This document shows, in pieces, positions 5,002-12,652 of a stretch of 39,442 bases of DNA. Position 1 is the stretch's first letter; every line of letters begins with the position of its first letter. This DNA comes from Sulfurimonas indica (GTDB lineage Bacteria > Campylobacterota > Campylobacteria > Campylobacterales > Sulfurimonadaceae), in the NCBI RefSeq assembly GCF_009192995.1, contig NZ_SDID01000021.1:1-39442 (forward strand), written 5' to 3'. Under the pieces are notes generated by a model. It saw only the letters and a list, made by a program, of their open reading frames with translations, searched no databases and had not been told where the DNA came from. The position numbers and the translations under genes were made by a program.

Positions 5002-5208
5002 GATTTTCGTGCAATTATTGAAAGTTTAAGAGAATATCTGGCAAAAGACGGAAGAAAAAAGGTCTATGATAAAGATATAGCAGCACTCCTTGGAATCTCC
5101 CAAGCACACTTTGCAACAATTAAAAAACGCAATGCAACACCGTATGTAGAAATTTTAAAGTTTTGTCATAGAGAGGGACTCTCTTGTTGTGAGCTCTTTT
5201 TTGATTAA
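4996..5208 (+). CDS. Small HTH DNA-binding protein (phage CI-repressor-like)
   Basis: 70 residues. The central segment, about residues 22-45 (DKDIAALLGISQAHFATIKK), reads as a helix-turn-helix, and the whole resembles the short N-terminal domain of CI/Cro-type repressors (Bac_CI_repr family). There is no effector or oligomerisation domain. A Cys pair lies near the C-terminus (SCCELF). AGGAG at 4985-4989 gives 6-nt spacing to the ATG, and both lie within a perfect dyad that could be its own operator. The stop codon overlaps the convergent dnaX stop by 4 nt (TTAA). It is likely an autoregulated small transcription factor. Targets are unknown. Confidence 0.75.
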   Translation: MKDFRAIIESLREYLAKDGRKKVYDKDIAALLGISQAHFATIKKRNATPYVEILKFCHREGLSCCELFFD

Positions 5209-6941
5209 ATTTTTGACTGGATTGTCACTTTTTTTGCTTCAAACAGTTCTATGGCCTTTTCTATCATAGGTTCTTTTGTAATGTTTGTTCCATCCACTTC
5301 ATCCTGCACAGAAGGCTCATCACAGTTACTTACACAGCTAGCTGCACCGCCTGCTTCTATATCTTCAATAGTTGAGGCACTTTGTGCACCTTGAGGCTCG
5401 TTAGACATGCTCTCTTGTACTTGTTTTTGTACTTCTTTTTTTTGCTCTACTATCTTTTTTGAACAAGGCACACCTTTGATAACAGTTTCAAAACCAAAAG
5501 TCTCACGTACAAGCTGTTTAATGACACCATAACCATGTCTCAGTGCTTTTTTACACTCTTCATCAGCACAGCTCTCCCAAGTAAGTGTGTTGTCACTAAA
5601 AGAGATGAAATGAATTTGTGCTTTAAAACACTCTCCAAGCGCTGCATTTCTATCCGTGATTTTTGCGATGAGTTCTTGGAATATTTCTAAATCAGGGTCT
5701 GTTTTTTTCTCTTCTTCTACGATTTGAGGTGTTGGTTCAGCTGGGACTTCTTCTTGAAGACTCTCTTGCTGTGTAGCCACTACACCATTCATCTCAGGTG
5801 TACTCTCTTGTAGTTTTATCTTTACAGGTGGTGCTGTCTGGGTTGTTTCTTGCGTGAGGATATCAGGACGAGGAACATCTTTTTGAAATGACTCTATCAT
5901 CTGGTCAATCTCACGGATACGAAGTGCTTCAATCATCTTGAAAAATATCATGCTCAGCACAAAAGAACCATCTGCATTAATGCTAAAGAGATATTTTGAT
6001 TCACTTAAAATTCTAAAGAATCTGTCAAGAACAAGTGTTGAAAAGAGGGCATCCTGATGGTACATCTTCTCTTTTAAAAAGGCGATAAGCTCATCGACTA
6101 CCATCTCGGATTCATAATCTTCAAGCACTTTTGTGTACTCTACAAGTTTTGCATAATCTTTTGCAAAAACAGCATCAAAAAGCTCAGAGATGAATTTTGG
6201 ATCAACAAGTCCGAGCATATCCGTAACCGTTCGCACATCGACATGGTTTTTTGAGTAGATGATGGCCTGGTCAAGCAGAGTAAGTGTATCACGTAGACTG
6301 CCACTCCCACTTCGTGCTAAAATCTCTAAAGCATCATGTTCAAAGCTGATACCTTCAAGATTTAAAATATGTGCCAAATGGTCCACTATCTTGTTGGTAG
6401 CTATGCTTTTAAAACGAAAGTGCTGTGTACGGCTGAGAATTGTTGCCGGGAGTTTGAGTGGGTCTGTCGTTGCTAAGATAAACTTGACATATTCAGGTGG
6501 CTCTTCAAGGGTTTTCAGCAAAGCATTAAAGGCCTCTTTTGTAAGCATATGGACTTCATCGATGATAAAGATTTTATAGCGTGCGGCAGCCGGTTTGTAT
6601 TTTGTCTGTTCAATGAGGTCCCGAATATCATCAATCTTACGTGAGGATGCTCCATCCATCTCGATGATGTCCATATGGCGTCCCTCTTTTGCCATTACAC
6701 AGTTTGAACATTTATCGCAAGGCTGATGGCTCATCCCCTCTTCACAAATGAGAGCCTTGGCAAAGATTCGTGCAGTAGAGGTTTTACCACTCCCGCGCAG
6801 TCCTGAGAAGAGATAAGCATGTGAGAGTCTGTTTGCATCAAGAGCAAGAGAAAGAGTCTGAGCGATGGTCTCTTGACCGATAAGCTCATCAAAATTGGAT
6901 GGTCGATATTTTCTCGCTAGTACTTCATGTGCTTCTCTCAA
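5205..6941 (-). CDS. dnaX: DNA polymerase III subunit gamma/tau
   Basis: 578 residues. This is the AAA+ clamp-loader ATPase of the replisome: Walker A in GLRGSGKTS (about residues 47-55), a zinc site made of Cys66, Cys75, Cys78 and Cys81, a Walker B-type segment IIDEVHML, sensor region and SRC-equivalent LSRTQHF. A middle domain follows, then a long Glu/Lys/Gln-rich, poorly conserved C-terminal region typical of tau. The start is TTG, supported by AAGGAG 7 nt upstream on the minus strand. An eight-A run in the coding strand (complement of 5436-5443, around residue 500) could allow slippage to a shorter product. rhlE is divergent upstream and the small HTH gene converges at the 3' end. Confidence 0.97.
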   Translation of the reverse strand: MREAHEVLARKYRPSNFDELIGQETIAQTLSLALDANRLSHAYLFSGLRGSGKTSTARIFAKALICEEGMSHQPCDKCSNCVMAKEGRHMDIIEMDGASSRKIDDIRDLIEQTKYKPAAARYKIFIIDEVHMLTKEAFNALLKTLEEPPEYVKFILATTDPLKLPATILSRTQHFRFKSIATNKIVDHLAHILNLEGISFEHDALEILARSGSGSLRDTLTLLDQAIIYSKNHVDVRTVTDMLGLVDPKFISELFDAVFAKDYAKLVEYTKVLEDYESEMVVDELIAFLKEKMYHQDALFSTLVLDRFFRILSESKYLFSINADGSFVLSMIFFKMIEALRIREIDQMIESFQKDVPRPDILTQETTQTAPPVKIKLQESTPEMNGVVATQQESLQEEVPAEPTPQIVEEEKKTDPDLEIFQELIAKITDRNAALGECFKAQIHFISFSDNTLTWESCADEECKKALRHGYGVIKQLVRETFGFETVIKGVPCSKKIVEQKKEVQKQVQESMSNEPQGAQSASTIEDIEAGGAASCVSNCDEPSVQDEVDGTNITKEPMIEKAIELFEAKKVTIQSKI

Positions 6942-7052
6942 CTTCTTGCTCCTTAAATAATAATAAGTGATTTTACCACGAGGTTGTTTAAGTTATGCTA
7001 TTATGAATTAGAGTTCTTCAAAAGAAGTCTAATATTAATACAATGGAAATAT

Positions 7053-8300
7053 ATGTCATTCGACAAACTCGGTTTATCAAAACCACTACTACAAGCTATA
7101 AAAGAGCAGGGCTATGTCAGCCCGACACCAATTCAGCAAAAAGCAATACCCGTCATTTTAGAGGGTAAAGATATTTTAGCCGGAGCACAGACAGGCACAG
7201 GAAAAACTGCAGGATTTACACTGCCATTACTAGAACTGCTCTCACGCAAGCAGATGCCAAAAGGTAAACACTACCCAAAAGCACTTATCTTAACACCGAC
7301 AAGAGAACTTGCTGCTCAGGTTGGTGAGAGTGTAGCACTTTACGGGAAACACCTCCCTTTTAAATCAACGGTCATCTTTGGTGGCGTGAAAATCAACCCA
7401 CAAATCACACAGCTCAAAAAAGGAGTTGATATTGTCATCGCAACACCTGGGCGGCTGCTTGATCATCTCTCACAAAAGACGATAGATTTGCGAAAGATTG
7501 AGTTTTTAATCTTGGATGAGGCTGATAGAATGCTTGATATGGGATTTATCAATGACATAAAAAAAGTACTTAATGTTGTGCCAAAACAAAAGCAGACGCT
7601 CCTTTTTTCTGCAACATATTCAAATGAGATAAAAAAACTCTCAAACTCACTTTTAAAGTCACCTGCAGTTGTTGAAGTTGCACGTCAAAACAGATCGAGT
7701 GAACAGGTTTCTCAATCTGTTTATCATGTTGATAAAGGACGTAAACGAGAGCTTTTAACCCATCTCATAAATGAAGGAAAATGGCAACAGGTCTTGGTCT
7801 TTACCCGAACAAAACATGGTGCAAATAAGCTTACAGGCCAACTTGAAAAAGATGGCATTCCTGCTGCTAGCATTCATGGAAACAAATCACAAAATGCTAG
7901 AACAAAAGCATTGGCTGACTTTAAAAAGGGTGATGTCCATGTGCTTGTGGCAACGGATATTGCAGCACGCGGTATTGACATCGACCAACTGCCTCATGTT
8001 ATCAATTATGAGTTGCCAAATGTGAGTGAAGATTATGTGCATCGAATTGGTAGAACTGGACGTGCAGGCAATGAGGGTGAAGCACTCTCACTTGTTTGTA
8101 TTGATGAAGATGACTATCTTAAAAACATAGAAAAGCTGATAAAAAAAGATATCCCAAAAGTGTGGCTTAAAGGTTTTAAACCAGATCCAAACATCAAAGC
8201 TGAGCCAATTAATAAAGGTGGTGGCAGAGGACGTGGGAGAAGTGGTGGCCCACGCAACAAAACACGAAGTTCAGGCAGTAGTTCTTCTAGAAGAGGGTAA
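7053..8300 (+). CDS. rhlE: DEAD-box RNA helicase, RhlE type
   Basis: 415 residues from ATG 7053; the frame is open further upstream to 6984 but that extension is not conserved-looking. All DEAD-box motifs are visible: Q motif (PTPIQQK), Walker A AQTGTGKT (about 45-52), [22 protein letters not shown], then domain 2 with [10 protein letters not shown] and HRIGRTGR. The tail after about residue 380 is rich in Gly, Arg and Ser (RGRGRSGG), as in RhlE/CsdA proteins, and should bind RNA non-specifically. It unwinds structured RNA in ribosome assembly or mRNA decay. It stands alone, divergent from dnaX. Confidence 0.95.
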
Positions 8301-8363: not shown

Positions 8364-9722
8364 ATGGCAATTATGAAAAATTTTGAGCAGTTACGAGAAG
8401 AAAATAATCAATTTATATATAAAAGTTATAAGGTTGTAGAGAGTGATGAAGAAATAGCACTTCATTTTCTTTATGAGTTGCGTGAGGGTGAGAAAGTAAC
8501 ACCATTTTATCATCGCATTGCACTTAAAAAAGATGTAAAAATGAGCACAGATTTTGATATGGAGACTATTGTCTTTCATATCGGTCTTGCTGAGGCTATC
8601 AGCTACTATAAAATTGCCGTTCCAAAAGAGTTTTATATTGAGTGTGGGTATCTCACGCAGCAGCAAAAAGAGTGGTTTGCTAAGCTCTACTTTAATGGTC
8701 TTGGTGAGTTTATCTACTTAAATAAGATAAATGTCACACAGGATGACTTGGTAGAGTTTATTACTGCAGATGAGCCGAAGTTTACAAAGATAGAGAGAGA
8801 AACTGAGGAACGTGCCATCATCCCAATAGGCGGAGGAAAAGACTCACTTGTAAGTTATGAGCTCTTGCGTGATGTTTTTCCTGATTCACTTCTTTTTTCT
8901 ATGAACCCTATCAAAGCCTCCAAGGCAATTTTAGATAAACATCCAGATAATAGTATTGTGCTAAAACGTGAACTTGATTTAGAGAAGATTTTAGAGTTTA
9001 ACAAGCGAGGCTATCTGAACGGGCATATACCATTTTCATCTATTGTTGGTTTTATCTCCATCTGGCTTGGACTGCTTTATAAAAGTCGCTATATAGTACT
9101 TTCAAATGAGTCAAGTGCCAATGAAGAGAACATCATCTATAACGGTCAAAAGATTAATCATCAATACTCAAAATCGATTGAGTTTGAAAATGATTTTCGC
9201 TGGTATATCAAAAACTTTGTAACGGATAATGTGGAGTATTTTAGCTTTTTAAGACCATTGGATGAGATTCACATTGCCAAACTATTTAGCATCTTGGCTA
9301 CTGAGCACTTTTTTACATTTCGCAGCTGTAATGTTGGCAGTAAAGCGAATATGTGGTGTGGTAAATGTCCAAAGTGTCTCTTTACCTACATAATGCTTTG
9401 TAACTATATCGATGATGTGACTTTGCGTGAGATATTTGGTAAAGATATGTTGGATGATGAGGAACTGCGTGAGCTCTTTGAAGGACTTTCTCAGAGCGAA
9501 GCTGTCAAGCCTTTTGAGTGTGTGGGAACCTATGATGAGGTAAATTATGCCCTGACACAGAAGTATAAAAGCTATGATAAAGAGCAGTTGCCAAAACTGT
9601 TGCAGAACTATCAATCAAAAGAGATAGCCTATAATCTGAGAGTTGATTTTGAGGGTGAAAATAATTTGCCACAGAAGTTTAAAGAGGTGCTGCGTGAGCA
9701 AGTTGCAAAACTTCATTTCTGA
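8364..9722 (+). CDS. murL: MurL-like UDP-MurNAc-L-Ala-L-Glu epimerase
   Basis: 452 residues (ATG 8364; ATG 8373 is a possible alternative). A P-loop-like motif IPIGGGKDS lies at about residues 153-161. A C-terminal Cys-rich segment (about 320-340) includes WCGKCPKC. Both features and the overall length fit MurL, the enzyme first defined in Xanthomonas that epimerises the terminal L-Glu of UDP-MurNAc-L-Ala-L-Glu to D-Glu, using ATP. The immediate overlap with a MurD-family ligase gene supports this strongly, since MurD2 makes the L-Glu substrate. This route replaces glutamate racemase plus classical MurD. The assignment is by remembered motifs and context, not by alignment. An unrelated PP-loop ATPase is the main alternative. 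Confidence 0.75.
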   Translation: MAIMKNFEQLREENNQFIYKSYKVVESDEEIALHFLYELREGEKVTPFYHRIALKKDVKMSTDFDMETIVFHIGLAEAISYYKIAVPKEFYIECGYLTQQQKEWFAKLYFNGLGEFIYLNKINVTQDDLVEFITADEPKFTKIERETEERAIIPIGGGKDSLVSYELLRDVFPDSLLFSMNPIKASKAILDKHPDNSIVLKRELDLEKILEFNKRGYLNGHIPFSSIVGFISIWLGLLYKSRYIVLSNESSANEENIIYNGQKINHQYSKSIEFENDFRWYIKNFVTDNVEYFSFLRPLDEIHIAKLFSILATEHFFTFRSCNVGSKANMWCGKCPKCLFTYIMLCNYIDDVTLREIFGKDMLDDEELRELFEGLSQSEAVKPFECVGTYDEVNYALTQKYKSYDKEQLPKLLQNYQSKEIAYNLRVDFEGENNLPQKFKEVLREQVAKLHF

Positions 9723-10956
9723 GCTAGCAGCTTATAAGAAGATAGCTATTTTTGGCTATGGAGTAGAGGGAAAATCCTTTCATTCTTTTGCTCAAAAGTA
9801 CTTACCACGTACAGAGATAATCATTGTTGATAAAGCTTACAATGATGAAGAAAATTATCTCAATAGACTGTGTGATGCAGAGCTGATTATAAAATCTCCT
9901 GGAATTTCACTGCATAATTTAGGCATCGATTATGATACTTACAATTTTACATCCATCACAGAGCTTTTTTTGAAACATTTTGGCTCACAAATCATTGGAG
10001 TTACCGGTACAAAAGGTAAAAGTACATTAGTAACACTCATTGATGCAATGTTGAAAAATGCTAGCAAAAAGAGTTTGTTATGTGGAAATATCGGATTGCC
10101 TCCACTAGAAATTATCGAAGATATTGATGAAAAAACAAAAGTTGTCATGGAGCTCTCATCACATCAACTCCACCATATTAATTACTCTCCGCATATTGCA
10201 ATTTTAACAAATCTTTTTGCAGAGCATTTGGACTATTATAAAAGTGAAGCAGACTATTATCAAGCAAAGTTCAATATCTTTTTACATCAAAAACTAGAAG
10301 ATAGCTTCATTACAAATATTGAAAACCGAGAAAAGTTTTTTAACAAAGAGCTTGTAAAGGCTGAACACTTTTATAATGTTTTTGATAAAAAACTTGCTTA
10401 TCCGTGCACTTTTAATATAAAACAGGGCTATATCCACCATGCAAGTTTGCAGATTTTAGAACAGCTACGTGAGGTATTGGATATTGACGCTTCCGCATAT
10501 AAAAAGAGTCTGCGTGAGTTTCAAACACTACCACACCGTCTTGAATATGTAGGCAGTGTCAATGGTGTCAGTTATATCAATGACTCCATTGCGACAATTC
10601 CCGAAGCGACAATGGAGGCGGTCAAGATTTTAAAAGATGTCGATACGCTCATCTTAGGTGGTTATGACAGGGGTGTGAGTTATGATACGCTTGCAGAGTT
10701 TTTACGTGCGAGTGGTGTAAAAAATATTATCTGCTTTTCAGATACAGGTAAGCAAATCTATGAGAAAATAAAGGACGTTAAAGGAGAAAAAAATATTTTT
10801 TACCTATATGATTTACACGAGAGTGTCGAAAAAGCAAAATATGTAGCAAAAAATATTGTACTTTTTTCTCCTGCAGCTTCAAGTTTTAATATGTACAAAA
10901 ACTTTATAGAGCGGGGCGAAGCCTTTAAAAATCTCGTAAAAAACCTAAAAGGATAA
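9694..10956 (+). CDS. murD2: MurD-family ligase, probably MurD2 (L-glutamate adding)
   Basis: 420 residues from GTG 9694, chosen because AGAGG lies 6 nt upstream; it overlaps the murL-like stop by 29 nt, so translation is coupled. A Rossmann-type N-terminus is followed by the Mur ligase ATP-binding motif GVTGTKGKST (about 102-111), the central domain segment MELSSHQL, and a C-terminal domain with NDSIATIPEAT. In classical MurD the last motif reads NDSKATN; loss of that Lys fits the MurD2 type, which joins L-Glu rather than D-Glu to UDP-MurNAc-L-Ala. Classical murD in this phylum usually sits next to mraY, which is not here. Cytoplasmic peptidoglycan precursor synthesis. Substrate stereochemistry is inferred. 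Confidence 0.8.
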   Translation: MSKLQNFISELAAYKKIAIFGYGVEGKSFHSFAQKYLPRTEIIIVDKAYNDEENYLNRLCDAELIIKSPGISLHNLGIDYDTYNFTSITELFLKHFGSQIIGVTGTKGKSTLVTLIDAMLKNASKKSLLCGNIGLPPLEIIEDIDEKTKVVMELSSHQLHHINYSPHIAILTNLFAEHLDYYKSEADYYQAKFNIFLHQKLEDSFITNIENREKFFNKELVKAEHFYNVFDKKLAYPCTFNIKQGYIHHASLQILEQLREVLDIDASAYKKSLREFQTLPHRLEYVGSVNGVSYINDSIATIPEATMEAVKILKDVDTLILGGYDRGVSYDTLAEFLRASGVKNIICFSDTGKQIYEKIKDVKGEKNIFYLYDLHESVEKAKYVAKNIVLFSPAASSFNMYKNFIERGEAFKNLVKNLKG

Positions 10957-10959
10957 AAA

Positions 10960-11289
10960 ATGCCGTTTATTGAGATAGATGAAGAAGATTTTGATGCGAT
11001 AATCGAGCGTGAGTTTGCAAAAGGACATACGGTTATACTGAAATTTGGTTCAACCTTTTGTGATGCCTGTCAATTGATGGAATTTGAACTTGAAGAGGTA
11101 CATGACAGAGTTACTAAAGTCTCTATCTTAGATATAGATAGTGGTGTTTGTGGGTCTTTGGTACATCGTTTCGATATTGAACAGGTTCCGACAACACTCA
11201 TCTTTAAAGATCCGTCGACACAGCTGTTGTATAAGTCAGGAATAATGTTAGCGGATGATATTGTAGATATTATCTTGCGTGAGCGATAA
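10960..11289 (+). CDS. Thioredoxin-like protein (CDAC)
   Basis: 109 residues with a thioredoxin fold pattern: beta strand TVILKFGS, active-site CxxC as CDAC (about residues 31-34), and the cis-Pro segment EQVPTTLIFKD. There is no signal peptide, so it is cytoplasmic. The dipeptide between the cysteines (Asp-Ala) is not the classical Gly-Pro, so redox properties probably differ from TrxA. It starts 3 nt after the murD2-like gene with a good AAGGA site and may be co-transcribed with it. Target proteins are unknown. Confidence 0.82.
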   Translation: MPFIEIDEEDFDAIIEREFAKGHTVILKFGSTFCDACQLMEFELEEVHDRVTKVSILDIDSGVCGSLVHRFDIEQVPTTLIFKDPSTQLLYKSGIMLADDIVDIILRER

Positions 11290-11311
11290 GAAGAGGTTAC
11301 TCTTACTTATC
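11285..11311. terminator. Shared hairpin at the convergent thioredoxin/rho ends
   Basis: GATAAGAAGAG (11285-11295) pairs with CTCTTACTTATC (11300-11311) around a GTTA loop, with one bulged base. The stop codons of both convergent genes lie inside it. Neither side has a T run, so it may stabilise 3' ends rather than terminate strongly. Confidence 0.45.
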
Positions 11312-12652
11312 TGTATTCATACTTTCTAAAAACTCTTCGTTTGTAGCTTTTTTACCCATAGTGTTGTAGATAAATTTCAGTGCTTCGATTTCATTATCTT
11401 GTTTATGAAGCATTTGACGTAAGATAAATACTTTCTGCAGTGTATCTTTTCCAATAAGCAGGTCATCTTTACGCGTACCAGATTTAAGGATGTCAATGGC
11501 AGGGAAGATTCTTCTGTCTGCGATTTTTCTATCAAGAACCACTTCCATATTACCCGTACCTTTGAACTCTTCAAAGATAACTTCATCCATTCTACTTCCT
11601 GTGTCAACAAGAGCAGTTGCGATGATAGTAAGGCTTCCACCATTTTCAATGTTACGTGCTGCACCAAAGAAACGCTTTGGTTTATGTAGAGCGTTTGCAT
11701 CCACACCACCTGAAAGAACTTTACCGCTTGATGGAGTAACAGTATTGTAAGCACGTGCAAGACGTGTGATAGAGTCAAGTAGAATTACTACATCACGGCC
11801 AATCTCAACACGACGCTTTGCTTTCTCAATCACCATCTCTGCAACTTTTACATGGTTTTTAGCAGGCATATCAAAAGTTGAGCTGTAAACTTCCCCTTTT
11901 ACACTACGTTCCATATCTGTTACCTCTTCAGGACGCTCATCAACAAGCAGAACCATTAAGTCCACTTCAGCATGATTCGCCGTAATTCCGTGAGCTATCT
12001 CTTTTAAAAGTTCTGTTTTTCCAGATCTTGGAGGTGCAACGATAAGTCCACGCTGCCCTTTACCGATAGGTGCAAACAGATCAAGCATACGACCCGTAAG
12101 CCCTTTTTCACGGTACTCTAATCTGAGTTGTTCTTCTGGGTAAAGTGGTGTCAAGTTGTCAAAAAGCGGACGTTTTTTGCTCTCTTCTGGTGGTAAGCTG
12201 TTTACCGCTTCAATCTTGATAAGTGCATAGTAACGTTCTTGGTCTTTTGGAGGACGAACCTGACCCGTTACAACATCACCGTTACGAAGAGCAAAGCGTT
12301 TAATCTGTGTGTTTGAAACGTAAGCATCATTGATAGACTCATTAAAAGATTTGTCAATTGAACGGATAAAACCATATCCGTCTTGCATAATCTCTAAAAT
12401 TCCAGAGAAGAGGATATAACCACCCTGAGCAGTTTGTGCTTTTAAAATTTCAAAGATAACATCTTGGCGTTTGAGTTCATTTGGTTGTTCAATACCAAGC
12501 TCTGTTGCCATCTCTACAAGTTCTTGGATACTTTTTGTACGAAGTTCTTCAACACTTGAACCTTTTACAGGTGTATGTGTTCGTTTAGAGTTATTGTTTT
12601 TATTGTTAGGTTTTGAATTTTTACGTGCTTGTGATGAACTGTTTTCACTCAT
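11303..12652 (-). CDS. rho: Transcription termination factor Rho
   Basis: 449 residues. Hexameric RNA-dependent ATPase that terminates transcription. A low-complexity N-terminus (residues 1-33, Ser/Asn/Lys-rich) precedes the Rho N-terminal helical domain (about 35-75), the cold-shock-like RNA-binding domain (about 78-155; YGFIRS) and the ATPase domain with Walker A APPRSGKT (206-213), Walker B-like [16 protein letters not shown], and the Q/R-loop region. Length is normal for the family. The minus-strand chemoreceptor gene lies upstream. Many convergent genes in this window lack intrinsic terminators, so Rho may matter for local transcript ends. Confidence 0.97.

Follow-up and report, generated by a model that had tools for sequence, protein, structure and literature searches.

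Sulfurimonas indica very likely makes the D-glutamate (D-Glu) of its peptidoglycan through murL-murD2, the only D-Glu route that we found in its genome, gained horizontally and now standing in for murI and murD at the site flanked by rho and dnaX. The pair lies in the window analysed here, a stretch of 39,442 nucleotides that constitutes one of the 52 contigs of a 2.09 Mb genome estimated to be 100% complete (Table 1). In the proposed mechanism, MurD2 would attach L-Glu to the cell-wall precursor, MurL, a putative QueC-like PP-loop enzyme, would use ATP to adenylate the carboxylate of the ligated L-Glu, and this residue would then be flipped to D-Glu on the precursor; the two genes would have arrived by horizontal transfer and taken the place of murI and murD in the rho/dnaX slot. 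We infer the epimerase activity of MurL, its chemistry and the transfer from the comparisons described below. For the genus, we consider it probable that D-Glu supply is an exchangeable cassette, in which murD came to lie beside murI between rho and dnaX and murI-murD was swapped more than once with murL-murD2 by recombination through the conserved flanks, that the murL-murD2 route is widespread, common in Bacteroidales and Clostridia and sometimes carried by one fused protein, and that MurL represents a hitherto unrecognised QueC-fold branch in which carboxylate adenylation was turned into epimerisation. The pathway itself was already known; new here are its occurrence in Sulfurimonas, how widely it has spread, the swap and the predicted fold.

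Table 1. The D-Glu slot of the window, with the four loci from elsewhere that encode MurL and MurD2 in one open frame (locus before the colon)
Feature	Position	Strand	Start, length or residues	Basis or remark
dnaX	5205..6941	-		other slot edge
DEAD-box helicase gene	6984..8300	+		between dnaX and murL; also in G020; presumably rhlE-like
murL	8364..9722	+	ATG, 452 aa	NF041275 match, motifs, model and fold match
PP-loop GGGKDS in murL	8829-8846		residues 156-161	motif
WCGKCPKC in murL			residues 331-338	motif
C322/C332/C335/C338 of MurL	within 9327-9377			C-x9-CxxCxxC cysteines
murD2 open frame	9643-10956	+	TTG, 437 aa	ORF list
murD2	9694..10956	+	GTG 9694 (probable start), 420 aa	TIGR01087 and residues
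thioredoxin-like gene	10960..11289	+		directly after murD2; PF00085, E 1.1e-10
rho	11303..12652	-		conserved edge of D-Glu slot
one-frame MurL-MurD2	L123:3923-6667			
one-frame MurL-MurD2	L125:3941-6928			
one-frame MurL-MurD2	L133:3962-6664			
one-frame MurL-MurD2	L154:3902-6664			

The initial annotation had read two overlapping frames at 8364-10956, with the motifs GGGKDS, WCGKCPKC and NDSIATI, as a MurL-type protein followed by a MurD-family ligase. Both frames and all three motifs are indeed present, NDSIATI in the ligase, and the MurL type of the upstream protein is borne out by homology over about 330 residues to the NCBIfam model NF041275 (E 1.7e-73, 247.6 bits, residues 73-402). The curated cut-off of this Xanthomonadales model, 700 bits, is reached neither by the window protein nor by any of 60 relatives, and the protein lies outside the narrow NF041275 equivalog, MurL_Xanthmoales. 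In the broad sense of XOO_1319 homologues paired with MurD2, it qualifies as a putative MurL by its homology and its MurD2-type partner; it matches the annotated X. sacchari murL in tblastn (E 4e-46), with 28-33% identity between the proteins. GGGKDS and the cysteines C322, C332, C335 and C338, which would bind zinc, are unchanged in 47/47 and 13/13 aligned rows. H221, H266, K382, E385 and C386, also invariant in the alignments, are candidates for proton transfer, and the PP-loop, the cysteines and the K382, E385 and C386 positions are common to the window and X. sacchari proteins. A Pfam search of the window MurL found no family at its threshold and, over the MurL members, weak matches only (DUF6395 in 36/47, E up to 0.1). 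Matches in a PDB sequence search with MurL alone were at chance level, and a MurL profile matched the PP-loop of TtuA in the PDB (E 0.0006). No match was found in a defence library, and promoter and terminator scans remained at the level of shuffled sequences.

The structural model of MurL (pLDDT 92.7, pTM 0.92) aligns with QatC over 327 residues (Z 18.6, rmsd 3.9; Foldseek E 2.3e-5) and with QueC over 198 residues (Z 13.4, rmsd 3.7; Foldseek E 5.7e-5). The hallmarks of QueC are reported to be SGGxDS and a zinc-binding C(x)8CxxCxxC (PMC13329287), and QatC is reported to have four zinc-binding cysteines (PMC13279940); with its PP-loop core and C(x)8-9CxxCxxC, MurL is predicted to have a QueC-like fold. 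The word "MurL" does not occur in the former, a 2026 paper on the QueC family. The window MurL lies below the threshold of the Pfam QueC family (PF06508), with no match up to E 10, and this family matches 4 of 47 MurL members weakly. MurL has been described as devoid of known conserved domains, requiring one ATP and forming AMP, with adenylation of the alpha-carboxylate given as its authors' hypothesis (PMC8788868). The predicted fold supports this hypothesis, since a QueC-like site could adenylate the carboxylate of Glu, and the invariant GGGKDS and C-x9-CxxCxxC fit the published ATP-to-AMP reaction.

The ligase gene probably starts at the GTG listed in Table 1, with AAAGAGG a short way upstream, and from there overlaps murL by 29 nt. 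Its product scores 270.6 bits against TIGR01087 (MurD), exceeding the cut-off of 211.95, and belongs to the MurD family, to which the initial annotation had assigned it. Its residues E177, I299, R326 and F398 correspond to D182, K319, K348 and L416 of E. coli MurD, through which we matched all sites because the published X. oryzae numbers misfit the X. sacchari protein. According to PMC8788868, the preference of X. oryzae MurD2 for L-Glu is set by its E197 and R358 (equivalent to D182 and K348 of the E. coli enzyme), the E197D/R358K variant uses D-Glu instead, and L-Glu is accepted by the K319T variant of E. coli MurD. The window ligase carries the Glu and Arg typical of MurD2 at the D182 and K348 positions and would thus be specific for L-Glu. 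The partners of MurL in Sulfurimonas have E, I, R, S and F in 11/11 cases and X. sacchari MurD2 has E, I, R, P and F, while E. coli MurD and 30/30 MurDs from genomes lacking MurL have D, K and K at the same sites. Among the non-gap residues of the MurD stretches of loci L081-L162, counted without stretches under 140 bits, we found E in 78/79, I in 79/79 and R in 78/78, the single exception at the D182 position being a D in the L107 partner. Given this split between E/I/R and D/K/K, NDSI instead of NDSK is a good marker of MurD2, unlike overall identity, which at 31% to X. sacchari MurD2 and 30% to E. coli MurD is no good marker for the window sequence. Alignment with the Xanthomonas proteins, which the initial annotation had suggested, thus yielded MurD2-type residues at the specificity positions together with MurL homology.

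A profile scan of genome contigs detected at least 574 relatives of MurL. The best 80 of these, a lower bound biased to close relatives, comprise four Sulfurimonas and one Gracilibacteria loci, the rest belonging to Bacteroidota and Bacillota (e.g., Ruminococcus flavefaciens). Together with two further Sulfurimonas loci (L161 and L162) they make up a set of 82, in 80 of which a MurD ORF follows MurL or is fused to it; L094 and L101 have no MurD in the stretch examined. Loci L081, L082 and L084 are second entries for genomes G020, G007 and G033, which therefore count twice in the totals over L081-L162. Four loci of Bacteroidales/Bacteroidia encode MurL and MurD in one open frame of 901-996 aa (Table 1). 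MurI was over the cut-off in none of the 50 genomes tested among the 76, mostly MAGs of unknown completeness, behind the non-Sulfurimonas loci, and gave weak matches in seven of the 50 (best 69.8 bits). The MurL/MurD2 route has been described in Gammaproteobacteria, Alphaproteobacteria and actinobacteria (PMC8788868), and orthologues of low similarity have been noted in a fungus, in cyanobacteria and in an amoeba (PMC5808125); the family is more widely spread than the available text of these two reviews states. In searches of an open-access library, judged by their listings, no paper turned up that reports MurL from Campylobacterota, Bacteroidota or Clostridia.

In a quick MurL tree of 46 chosen rows with long branches, rooted on Xanthomonas and Pseudonocardia as outgroup, all 13 Sulfurimonas rows fall into a single clade (100); G038 is the next to join them (85), followed by the Gracilibacteria row (99). 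The Pseudonocardia plasmid MurL-like proteins served as outgroup only, and no MurD is annotated in the one locus of theirs examined (L079). A quick MurD tree of 59 chosen rows is divided by one branch (97) into 44 MurL partners and 15 controls, with the warning that the E. coli and Campylobacterota MurDs are long branches that meet. The trees favour the view that both genes were acquired from one and the same pool of Bacteroidota/Bacillota type, and both proteins group with a divergent MurL/MurD2 set present in Bacteroidales, Clostridia and one Gracilibacteria genome. In-place evolution of MurD2 from the native Sulfurimonas MurD finds no support, since the two fall on opposite sides of the MurD quick tree.

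The genomic slot is shared by the two routes. The rho gene adjoins murI in 27/30 murI loci, and in 13/13 Sulfurimonas MurL genomes murL-murD2 occurs beside rho and is oriented opposite to it. Beyond murL, dnaX is found in 10 of these 13, separated from it by other genes spanning up to about 2.5 kb; the contigs of G022, G007 and G034 stop 1-2.6 kb past murL, before any dnaX. A thioredoxin-like gene separates murD2 from rho in 11/13 of these slots; in the window it has a CDAC motif and begins 3 bases after murD2, and we found no relative of it in L085-L160. Among 21 MurI-using Sulfurimonas regions, dnaX lies beyond murI in 17, and the slot also contains murD (rho-murI-murD-dnaX) in seven, the dnaX end not being seen in G018. 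In our reading, once murD had moved beside murI, the two formed a self-contained module, open to exchange as one piece.

The RpoB tree covers the 25 of 30 sought genomes in which the protein was found; G022, G033, G034, G003 and G019 are not in it. Ten MurL and five murI-murD genomes are together set apart by one branch (100/99) and interleave within that group, and a tree of rho and dnaX, obtained before the RpoB test, gave the same picture. A single MurL clade is rejected on the RpoB tree (p-AU 3e-59); this suggests that close relatives have exchanged the cassette, and it disfavours one swap followed by vertical descent only. Such a single ancestral swap, with the scatter of MurL due to tree or binning error, is in our view unlikely. 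Several of the genomes are drafts, and estimated contamination is 5 and 3 for G014 (MurL) and G023 (murI-murD), respectively, but the comparison of these two, whose RpoB proteins are 98.6% and rpoB region DNA 95.2% identical, also speaks against it: the flanks of their slots, both cut by contig ends, are as similar as the rpoB regions (93.6% over 955 bases and 95.2% over 293 bases), whereas blastn found no similarity between the slot contents.

The initial annotation had left a choice between replacement of MurI and a second route, to be settled by searching the genome for murI and a second murD. Glutamate racemase (MurI) has no match in the window genome, and the window MurD is the only one over the cut-off, the other Mur-ligase matches being three weaker ones of 64-88 bits. 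A search for D-amino-acid aminotransferase gave a single match, whose 129 bits fall short of the cut-off of 277. Matches of 118-132 bits are present in 18/18 genomes compared, including the MurI user G031, and this background match is probably the branched-chain enzyme. With MurI, a strong D-amino-acid aminotransferase and a further MurD over the cut-off all missing from the genome, the data favour the replacement and not the second route. Among 60 relatives, MurL is present in 12 (11 of the same genus, window genome counted, plus G038 from another family), MurI in 45, both in none and neither in three (G017, G029 and G054, estimated 68, 79 and 90% complete); for this exclusion Fisher p is 3e-10, with kinship ignored. 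The control set L047-L076 was taken as MurI users, although MurI matches weakly in G055 and not at all in G017, and a 1e-50 limit in one search missed G011, G033, G034 and G038, all four of which carry MurD2. In G038 (L016 and L169) murL and murD2 are on different contigs, unlinked within the stretches examined.

These results bear on whether the ligase might be an ordinary D-Glu MurD, the PP-loop protein having some other role and an undetected racemase or aminotransferase supplying D-Glu. We regard this as very improbable: although overall identity fails to separate MurD2 from MurD and a weak aminotransferase match exists, the residues that set chirality are all of the MurD2 type, MurI and MurL are mutually exclusive, and the aminotransferase match does not rise above the background. 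An altered peptidoglycan, in which L-Glu stays L or another residue is ligated, seems a shade less probable still, for the divergence of MurL and the Tyr that mostly occupies the L416 position in partners from other phyla (70/77 residues) are set against the PP-loop, cysteines and K382/E385/C386 positions kept from X. sacchari MurL and the E, I and R kept in the ligase. Nothing was found in favour of MurL/MurD2 as a second route beside MurI, which we rejected as practically without credibility, because MurI is missing from all 14 MurL genomes of the order, namely the window genome and the rest of the 12 MurL relatives, G062 and G174. The reading of murL-murD2 as the replacement route has itself points against it, namely the NF041275 shortfall, the low identities, the Asp of the L107 partner, the quick long-branch trees and the predicted nature of the fold.

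Among 397 Campylobacterota genomes at least 90% complete, MurL occurs in four, all of this genus. The MurI search matched 383, 357 of them over the cut-off, and left 14 without match, including the four MurL genomes; nine of the other ten have an aminotransferase match of 235-279 bits, two matches being over 277. The MurL and MurI searches presumably used the same draw, the MurL search naming 24 genomes. With MurI, MurL and strong aminotransferase genomes in one sample, all three known D-Glu routes seem to be in use within the order. Fourteen genomes without MurL from families f20 and f11 (L223-L228 among them), with no or weak MurI, have the 235-279-bit aminotransferase beside the background copy and therefore probably make D-Glu via D-amino-acid aminotransferase. 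One genome estimated to be 99% complete (G422, family f14, genus g57) has neither MurI nor MurL and only the background aminotransferase.

The D-Glu step, essential for the cell wall, had been taken as settled in this phylum. G014 and G023 appear to have two non-homologous D-Glu routes at the same locus, a natural experiment on the replacement of an essential pathway. PMC8788868 described the MurL/MurD2 route as limited to relatively few genera and put it forward as a narrow-spectrum drug target; that many gut Bacteroidales and Clostridia genomes carry it is relevant to this view. The link between MurL and QueC offers a structural basis for testing the ATP-dependent epimerase.

The closest known system is that of X. 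oryzae, where MurD2 and MurL are XOO_1320 and XOO_1319 (Feng et al. 2017, as cited in PMC8788868 and PMC5808125). As in Xanthomonas, murL is followed by an overlapping murD2 (the order seen in X. sacchari), the ligase has the E/I/R residues and MurI is absent. In contrast with Xanthomonas, identity is only 28-33% for MurL and 31% for the ligase, the host belongs to another phylum, the pair occupies the rho/dnaX slot, and its proteins group with the Bacteroidota/Bacillota-type set. In the route of E. coli and of MurI-using Campylobacterota, with MurI and a D-Glu-specific MurD, free Glu is racemised before ligation and inverted without ATP; MurI is unrelated to MurL, and the MurD of that route carries D, K and K. 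QueC and QatC (QueC family, PF06508) resemble MurL in predicted fold, GGxDS-type loop and four-cysteine motif but differ in substrate and reaction, and MurL is below the Pfam QueC threshold. The D-amino-acid aminotransferase route, like murL-murD2, dispenses with MurI, but it yields free D-Glu from 2-oxoglutarate, and the window genome has no match as strong as those of the genomes that probably use it.
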